Below, piece after piece: positions 9,999 to 46,098 of a stretch of DNA of 64,000 nucleotides (positions are counted from its first letter, which is position 1; every line of letters starts with the position of its first letter). The stretch spans positions 1 through 64,000 of the forward strand of contig JAFGCX010000020.1 in the NCBI GenBank assembly GCA_016932415.1, read 5' to 3'. Under the pieces are notes generated by a model that saw only the letters and a list, made by a program, of their open reading frames with translations, was not told the DNA's origin and did not search any database. This DNA comes from Candidatus Krumholzibacteriota bacterium (GTDB lineage Bacteria > Krumholzibacteriota > Krumholzibacteriia > Krumholzibacteriales > Krumholzibacteriaceae). Made by a program: the position numbers and the translations under genes.

Positions 9999-11408
9999 TC
10001 AATTGTTTTCCAGATCAAAATTCTTCAGTCGGTATCTCAACTTGTCTCTGTTCAACTGTAGCAGCCGTGACGCCTTGCTCTGATTATTGTCAGATTCGTT
10101 CATCGCTTTAGATATCAGTTCCTTCTCGATATTCTTCATCAATTCCTCGAAAGGAATACCGTTTTCGGGATAAGGCCGCCCGAGAGCTATCCCGATGTTG
10201 TTCGCTATGGTGAATTCCCTGTCCGACAGGCTTTCCGTGATCATGCTGCCGGGAAGATGTTCTCTCTTCAGAACAATGTCATCTTCAAGAAGAACGATTC
10301 TTTCTATTACATTCTTCAGTTCCCTGATATTGCCTGGCCATTTGTAAGACATGAGTATTTCGAAAGCCTCATCGTCTATATCCTGGAAATTTTTCTTGAA
10401 CTGCTTGTTGTACCTGTTCAGGAAATGTTTAACCAGCAGGAAAATATCTTCTTTTCTGTCCCTGAGCGCAGGTATATCTATCGGAATGACCTTCAACCTG
10501 TAAAAAAGATCCTCCCTGAAAGTCCTGTTTTCCACTTCCAGGGCAAGGTCCCTGTTTGTCGCTGAGATTATGCGTACGCTAACATTTATATCCTTCGTCC
10601 CTCCAACCCTGCGAAACGACATCTTCTCAAGGACCCTGAGAAGTTTTACCTGTATTGTGAGGCTCATTTCTCCGATTTCGTCGAGAAAGAGCGTGCCTTT
10701 GTTAGCAAGTTCAAGCAGTCCCGTCTTCTGTATCTTGGCATCGGTAAAAGCCCCTTTCTCATGCCCGAAAAGCTCACTCTCCAGAAGCTCTTCAGGCAGG
10801 GAAGCGCAGTTTATCTCCAGGAACGGCTTGTCATGTCTCGGACTGTTCTTGTGGATCATGTTTGCGATTATTTCCTTGCCCGTGCCACTCTCTCCCTGTA
10901 TGAGGACAGTGGTCGTATCGCTTTTCGCGACAGCCTTGACAATCTCGTAGATCTCCTTCATCTTCGGCGATTCTCCAGGTACATATTGATCGTCAAAATC
11001 TGTTTTCAGTCTTCTTCTAAGCTGAAAAAGCTCTCTTGTCAATTTCTGCGAATTCAATCCTTTCTCGATAGTCAGGAGTAACTGTTCGAGATTTACCGGT
11101 TTGCTGACAAAATCAAAAGCGCCTTTCTTGATGGCTTTAACGGCTATTTCGATATCCCCGAAAGCGGTAAGCATGATAACGCAGATGTCCGGGAGTTCTT
11201 CTTTTATCCGTGCAAGCACCTCTATCCCGTTTATATCTGGCAGCTTAAGATCGAGAAGTATAAGATCGGGTAGTTCTCTTCTGGCCAGTTCAAGAGCTTC
11301 ATTTCCCGTCGCGGCTGTTAGAGATTCATATCCCTCGTCAGTTATAGTCTTCTCCAGAAACATTCGGATTGTATCTTCATCATCAACCAGAAGCACTACC
11401 GGTTTCAA
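9999..11408 (-). CDS. NtrC-family sigma-54 response regulator
   Basis: 469 residues in three parts. The receiver domain (1-120) has the phosphoacceptor in L-I-L-L-D-L. The AAA+ domain (about 140-380) has Walker A G-E-S-G-T-G-K-E and the sigma-54 contact loop G-A-F-T-D-A. A Fis-type helix-turn-helix ends the protein (S-K-A-S-R-L-L-Q-L-N). It overlaps the 3' end of the kinase gene by 26 bp, so the two form one operon. It should activate sigma-54 promoters, possibly including genes for the nearby polysaccharide, but I found no clear -24/-12 site. Confidence 0.95.
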   Translation of the reverse strand: MKPVVLLVDDEDTIRMFLEKTITDEGYESLTAATGNEALELARRELPDLILLDLKLPDINGIEVLARIKEELPDICVIMLTAFGDIEIAVKAIKKGAFDFVSKPVNLEQLLLTIEKGLNSQKLTRELFQLRRRLKTDFDDQYVPGESPKMKEIYEIVKAVAKSDTTTVLIQGESGTGKEIIANMIHKNSPRHDKPFLEINCASLPEELLESELFGHEKGAFTDAKIQKTGLLELANKGTLFLDEIGEMSLTIQVKLLRVLEKMSFRRVGGTKDINVSVRIISATNRDLALEVENRTFREDLFYRLKVIPIDIPALRDRKEDIFLLVKHFLNRYNKQFKKNFQDIDDEAFEILMSYKWPGNIRELKNVIERIVLLEDDIVLKREHLPGSMITESLSDREFTIANNIGIALGRPYPENGIPFEELMKNIEKELISKAMNESDNNQSKASRLLQLNRDKLRYRLKNFDLENN

Positions 11409-43644: not shown

Positions 43645-45594
<1,950 letters not shown>

Positions 45595-45683
45595 TTAAAT
45601 ATTCCAGAATACTAACTTCAATAAGCATGCCAATTAGGGCAAAATAGAGGCCTACATATCATATTGCAATATAACAAATTAGG

Positions 45684-45768
45684 ATTATATCAATTGTCCA
45701 TGGCAGAAATGGCAAAACTCACGCCATGACAGAAGCTGCCATAGATGCCATTATGGCGTATTATGGCA
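45684..45768 (-). promoter_or_regulatory. dnaK promoter with ATGGC/GCCAT repeat array
   Basis: TATAAT at 45689-45684 with extended TGA before it and no good -35. Upstream, seven copies of ATGGC/GCCAT lie within 45698-45768: at 45700 and 45709 (plus), 45723, 45737 and 45746 (inverted), and 45753 and 45763 (plus). Period is 9-10 bp, and 45737-45768 forms a two-tier inverted repeat centred at 45752. The spacing suits a protein bound on one face of the helix. Confidence 0.55.
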
Positions 45769-45780
45769 GGCTCAGAGAGG

Positions 45781-46098
45781 TCAGTCCTTAGCATCGCTTT
45801 CAGAGTCGTCCTCCCCCATCGCGCACTTTATCTCCCCGTTTTCAAGACGCAACTGTATCTCGAGACATATATCATAGTTTCTTTTTGCAATATCGCTGTA
45901 CTCGTAAAATACGCACCTGTTGTCTCTCGAACACCTGTTCTTTTTCCGGCATATCCTCAGCTGTTCATAGAACCAGGATTCGATATATTCTCCTTTCCCG
46001 ACATCCCATCTCTCTCCTCCCCTTTCCACATCATGCTCATGATGGTACGGGAAAAGCTTTTTCCTCATATCGCGTATCAGTTTTTCAAGCCGCCTCAT
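45781..46098 (-). CDS. Small Cys-containing protein, unknown
   Basis: 105 residues, charged and mostly helical. Contains five cysteines, with a cluster R-I-C-R-K-K-N-R-C-S-R-D-N-R-C-V-F-Y-E and two later (I-C-L-E, I-K-C-A), suggesting metal binding. The end is acidic. It stands alone between cca and the dnaK promoter region. I do not recognise a family. Confidence 0.55.
   Translation of the reverse strand: MRRLEKLIRDMRKKLFPYHHEHDVERGGERWDVGKGEYIESWFYEQLRICRKKNRCSRDNRCVFYEYSDIAKRNYDICLEIQLRLENGEIKCAMGEDDSESDAKD

Follow-up and report, generated by a model that had tools for sequence, protein, structure and literature searches.

A conserved repeat array upstream of dnaK in Candidatus Krumholzibacteriota as the probable enhancer of a sigma-54 promoter

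Introduction

The textbook control of bacterial dnaK is exerted by sigma-32 or by repressors, such as HrcA and HspR. Sigma-54 promoters follow a different logic, as they are strictly activator-dependent and combine a very low basal activity with strong inducibility. Activators of the NtrC class act on such enhancer-dependent promoters, for example at glnAp1/p2, where NtrC also represses the housekeeping start glnAp1.

The closest described chaperone system is that of Chlamydia trachomatis, in which tandem sigma-66 and sigma-54 promoters are found at hrcA, in an operon that includes grpE and dnaK, with AtoC/CtcC as the activator (PMC7482065, PMC8762339). In addition, a 2025 in-silico survey of sigma-54 regulons reported an enrichment of DnaK, GroEL and GrpE promoters in Planctomycetota and Bacteroidota (PMC12316311). 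Its main text makes no mention of Krumholzibacteriota, Lentisphaerota or Kiritimatiellota, and the passages considered here describe no enhancer, no activator and no division of chaperones between HrcA and sigma-54. Our literature search found no paper that joins Krumholzibacteriota with sigma-54. We regard the Chlamydia promoters and the survey as partial precedents.

Here, we analyze the region upstream of dnaK (dnaK1) in a Candidatus Krumholzibacteriota genome, within a stretch of 64,000 nucleotides referred to as the window. With glnAp1/p2 the locus shares a remote inverted-repeat enhancer, a bendable spacer, a −24/−12 promoter and possibly an overlapping sigma-70 promoter by the enhancer sites, all as predicted elements. 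It differs in that the target is dnaK, the enhancer (UAS) has the form TGMCAT-N-ATGKCA, the −12 element is TTGA or TTGT rather than TTGC, and the activator is a candidate only. The likeness to Chlamydia lies in a predicted sigma-54 promoter for the dnaK transcript next to a possible housekeeping promoter, and in a putative NtrC-type response regulator. However, the chlamydial promoter region also contains CIRCE and is bound up with HrcA, whereas dnaK1 stands alone, lacks CIRCE and carries a multi-site UAS; a co-transcription of dnaK with hrcA and grpE of the Chlamydia type was not found at dnaK1. The present locus agrees with the survey (PMC12316311), as far as considered here, in that sigma-54 promoters are predicted at chaperone genes outside Proteobacteria. 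With the HrcA/CIRCE system it has in common an inverted repeat upstream of chaperone genes, CIRCE itself being present at groES in the same genome, but CIRCE is a repressor operator placed at the promoter, while the array at dnaK1 is unlike it in sequence and sits upstream of the promoter.

Results and Discussion

The repeat array

The dnaK1 gene (minus strand, 43645–45567) encodes a protein of 640 aa with a Pfam HSP70 match (E = 4e-267). It is preceded by a small ORF for a cysteine-containing protein of 105 aa without a Pfam match (45781–46098, minus strand), whose C-terminal end can also be recognised ahead of the array in numerous relatives. Starting 13 bp past the stop codon of this gene, seven ATGGC/GCCAT words lie within 45700–45768, with starts at 45700, 45709, 45723, 45738, 45747, 45753 and 45763. 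The seven-copy array noted in the preliminary description is real: dinucleotide shuffles of the 85-bp array contain 1.06 such words on average, at least seven are reached in 0 of 5,000, and the runner-up 85-bp stretch in the window has four. A spacing of 9–10 bp, also described, holds for some of the start-to-start intervals and fails for others (9, 14, 15, 9, 6 and 10 bp).

The large two-tier inverted repeat reported there is likewise present, and consists of an inner CGCCAT-A-ATGGCA (45758–45746) and the outer half-sites TGCCAT (45768–45763) and ATGGCA (45742–45737). Read on the minus strand, the whole element TGCCAT-N4-CGCCAT-A-ATGGCA-N3-ATGGCA (45737–45768), with its central palindrome at 45758–45746, is the predicted main UAS. 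Closer to dnaK on the same strand are a half-site pair, TGTCATGGC (45723–45731), of the family seen in relatives, and a direct half-site pair, TGCCATTTCTGCCAT (45700–45714), which may be a secondary UAS or a switch site.

As a palindromic intergenic repeat, the array might be taken for a selfish or dispersed element of the REP or MITE kind. However, its sequence is single-copy in the genome, the combination TGCCAT-N3-TGCCAT occurs twice in the array and at one other place only, and the different families retain the array at one and the same gene. Moreover, the 23-bp pattern TGMCAT-N4-TGMCAT-N-ATGKCA, with at most one mismatch, has matches in seven of the 58 genomes, almost all of them in the dnaK upstream region, and its reversed control has no match in the 58. 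A dispersed repeat was rejected on the grounds of the single copy and this near exclusivity, and its probability is negligible.

The promoter of dnaK

Two putative promoters can be recognized between the array and dnaK. The first is an extended −10 element, TGATATAAT (45692–45684, minus strand), a possible housekeeping promoter. The second is a sigma-54 promoter, TGGCATGCTTATTGAA (45632–45617, minus strand), with −24 and −12 elements (TGGCATG-N4-TTGA), located 65 bp before the ATG of dnaK. It is the sole match to the strict sigma-54 pattern on both strands of the window.

The comparison with the upstream regions of orthologous dnaK genes from relatives across the class Ca. Krumholzibacteriia distinguishes the two. 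The −24/−12 pattern is found 50–215 bp before the dnaK start in all 33 relatives, with 0.68 expected from shuffled sequences (maximum of 5 in 50 rounds). A score of at least 10 out of 12 against the sigma-54 consensus is attained by 32 of 34 dnaK loci and by 12 of 680 shuffles. An alignment anchored at the −24 element (45632–45626 in the window) shows column conservation of TGGCA[CT]G-N4-TTG across the class, with the GG present in all 34 rows, an exact 10-bp spacing from GG to the −12 element and a nearly invariant TTG. The canonical C that would follow is mostly T or A in the class (A in the window genome), while TTGC is common at the dnaK loci of Poribacteria and the PVC group. The other sigma-54-like promoters of the window genome carry TTGC, unlike the dnaK promoters of Krumholzibacteriia.

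The rpoN gene is present in 58/58 genomes, and the RpoN box ARRTVAKYRE is intact in the three genomes in which the protein was read. In a search of the window genome for other genes with both elements, eight matches to the strict pattern were obtained, none of them with an intergenic UAS. The array itself contains another sigma-54-like match (TGGCGTGAGTTTTGCC, from 45726), which was dropped because it lies away from the conserved position.

The extended −10 element was described earlier as a promoter beside the array with no −35, and this is accurate as to the sequence: the match to an extended −10 is perfect and no −35 stands at the proper distance. A scan of the region did not report such a promoter. 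The role assigned to it, that of the sigma-70-type promoter served by the array, is not borne out. The element is exact in 1/33 relatives and within one mismatch in 7/33 (about 3 expected), as compared with 33/33 for the sigma-54 promoter. One may nevertheless suppose that an ordinary regulator of the sigma-70 type, be it an activator or a repressor, uses the array as its operator and acts on this element, given the perfect sequence of the latter and the fact that the pair TGCCATTTCTGCCAT covers the position of a −35. Against this, it is with respect to the sigma-54 promoter that the position of the array is maintained, and it would be unusual for a sigma-70 operator to have seven sites and extend 90 bp upstream. 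We therefore consider such an operator improbable.

Conservation of the half-sites and the spacer

The possibility that the repeats are lost from related genomes, raised beforehand as the decisive point, was checked, and the array was found to be conserved upstream of dnaK in the relatives. Inverted TGMCA/TGKCA half-site arrays are kept at this position throughout the class, with 131 half-sites observed 40–170 bp above the −24 box versus 26 in shuffles, a fivefold excess. The palindrome GMCA-N3-TGKC is found in 19 of the 33 relatives (0.8 expected); in the other 14 the exact core is absent and half-sites alone are kept. The central palindrome lies about 115–126 bp above the −24 box (126 bp from the palindrome start), a distance that is similar in the nearest families and that falls within the range of about 80–200 bp upstream expected for the repeated or inverted sites of a sigma-54 enhancer.

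Between the array and the promoter, 37 bp before the −24 box, is an AT-rich block, TTGCAATATGATA (45657–45669, minus strand; CAA-N4-TTA), whose position is conserved in relatives and which resembles an IHF bend site, in a degenerate form in the window genome. In the nearer families this block is column-conserved, more weakly than the promoter, as TT.TA.T.CAA....TTA, 22–42 bp upstream of the sigma-54 promoter. No other element shows column conservation in the anchored alignment, the extended −10 included. The IHF consensus is matched in the block within one mismatch in 15/33 relatives, versus about 5 expected.

An RNA element has also been considered, either a terminator for the small gene that precedes dnaK (end at 45781) or a thermometer or leader structure of dnaK. 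The array does begin 13 bp after the stop codon of that gene and its folding is better than that of shuffled sequences, with z scores of −2.25 (dnaK strand) and −3.3 (opposite strand). However, the gain in folding is modest, no convincing T run follows the helix and one weak match was returned by the scan. The array is upstream of both promoters and hence outside the dnaK leader, and the relatives preserve the sequence and spacing of the half-sites. Both the thermometer and the terminator were rejected on the basis of the modest folding and the location above the promoters, and we consider an RNA element very unlikely.

The array is thus, with high probability, the enhancer of a sigma-54-dependent dnaK promoter and the predicted target of an enhancer-binding protein (bEBP), because a sigma-54 promoter is found at dnaK in 33/33 relatives, an IHF-like block lies between the two elements and rpoN is universal in the set. 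Weighing against it are the −12 element, which is TTGA or TTGT instead of the canonical TTGC, the lack of the exact palindrome core in 14 of the 33 relatives and the degenerate IHF-like match in the window genome. This reading of the sequence builds on what is directly observed, namely how the DNA elements are conserved and placed, their statistics, and the presence of rpoN and of many bEBPs.

Proposed mechanism

From these elements we infer binding, looping, a start site and a response to a stress signal. Dimers of a bEBP (AAA+ with a Fis-type HTH) would bind the inverted TGMCAT/ATGKCA half-sites ~125 bp above the −24/−12 promoter and assemble into an AAA+ ring, which would touch the sigma-54 holoenzyme across the looped AT-rich, IHF-like spacer. 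ATP hydrolysis by the bEBP would then open the dnaK promoter, with transcription starting near 45606 and yielding a leader of about 40 nt. As the half-sites at 45714–45700 overlap the −35 position of the extended −10 element, the bound protein might also shut off the weak housekeeping promoter.

HrcA/CIRCE and the second dnaK

No match to CIRCE (TTAGCACTC-N9-GAGTGCTAA) was found upstream of dnaK1, in accordance with the preliminary description, but CIRCE does occur elsewhere in the genome, before groES (C34:116786). Among the groES upstream regions, 19/30 have CIRCE and 0/30 have a sigma-54 match. The genome has a second cluster, hrcA-grpE-dnaK2, separate from dnaK1, and no sigma-54 match of comparable score was found upstream of dnaK2. 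HrcA/CIRCE is thus best read as governing groESL and not dnaK1 in the window genome, so the chaperones would be split between repressor and activator control. Most likely, an activator-driven sigma-54 switch replaces the usual HrcA repressor control at dnaK. The earlier suggestion of a multi-site operator or activator region for a regulator other than HrcA agrees with this as regards the predicted multi-site activator region, and departs from it in assigning the promoter role to the sigma-70-type extended −10.

Other phyla

The sigma-54 pattern at dnaK is also seen in 11/11 Poribacteria, 9/13 PVC-group and 2/2 UBP3 loci and in some other named outgroups. It is absent from all 33 control loci, i.e., 0/16 Acidobacteriota, 0/3 Zixibacteria, 0/7 Delta/Proteo/Nitrospinota and 0/7 loci labelled Actinomycetota/Chloroflexi. 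Poribacteria and Lentisphaerota/Kiritimatiellota have the enhancer/sigma-54 layout at dnaK as well, and the core GMCA-N3-TGKC is shared, as TGCCAAWTTGGCA in Poribacteria and as GACACAATGKC in the PVC group.

In five loci of Lentisphaerota/Kiritimatiellota (L111, L144, L158, L164 and L165), dnaK is followed by groES, and by groEL where the contig reaches, on the same strand and operon-like; a sigma-54-like promoter stands in front of dnaK. In four Neomarinimicrobiota loci (L094, L102, L108 and L113), a TTGGCA-like element with TTGTCATTGTA is conserved ~76 bp upstream of dnaK. It does not fit the strict pattern but may be a related promoter. In UBP3 (L300, G065:C129, 4062–6571), the genes for a PAS histidine kinase and an NtrC-type receiver-AAA-HTH bEBP immediately precede dnaK and share its orientation, and L105 has the same bEBP-dnaK arrangement.

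The candidate activator

The window genome encodes 21 bEBPs. We tentatively propose G000:C1:68943-70421 as the cognate activator, an assignment that could well turn out otherwise. This bEBP is class-wide, and all genomes with a completeness of 90% or more have a clear orthologue of it (at least 299 bits). It has no Pfam receiver match, and the domain at its N-terminus was not recognisable as a receiver. In the bEBP tree, the dnaK-adjacent bEBP of UBP3 groups with those of Lentisphaerota/Kiritimatiellota/Pontiella (SH-aLRT 83). Its grouping with the candidate is the best topology, weakly supported (0.83 in FastTree; SH-aLRT of 12 in IQ-TREE). The main alternative is L064, a nearby class-wide bEBP, which scores highest against the UBP3 protein in full-length BLAST but does not have the best placement in the tree. 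A comparison of the HTH alone singled out no one bEBP.

The genes of L064 and of another bEBP, L062, are in tandem or close in G000, G001, G020 and G036 (L297, G000:C1:68943-75800), and the pair is preceded by a large receiver-containing gene. In G036, a strict TGACAATTTGTCA palindrome (G036:C1:3548938, L299:7938) immediately precedes the candidate's orthologue, where autoregulation is possible; none was found before this gene in G000, G001 and G020. Another class-wide bEBP, L060 (receiver-AAA-HTH), is encoded in the window at about 10479–10976 (minus strand).

Conclusions

It is conceivable, though we put it somewhat below even chances, that Krumholzibacteriota, Poribacteria, Lentisphaerota/Kiritimatiellota and UBP3 have in common a sigma-54 switch dedicated to chaperones, in which one orthologous bEBP would recognize GMCA-N3-TGKC and drive the ATP-dependent activation of dnaK, together with groES and groEL in the dnaK-groES-groEL arrangement of Lentisphaerota/Kiritimatiellota. 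If true, this activation would follow neither the sigma-32 route nor that of repression by HrcA, HspR or CtsR.

The present analysis provides DNA probes (the UAS and the promoter) and a leading candidate protein; the enhancer-binding protein that it predicts should have very few targets. In the proposed scheme, the main Hsp70 of an entire phylum, and apparently of others as well, would be driven from a sigma-54 promoter, while the window genome keeps HrcA/CIRCE for GroESL. The response to heat shock or envelope stress would then have a second logic that lends itself to testing.
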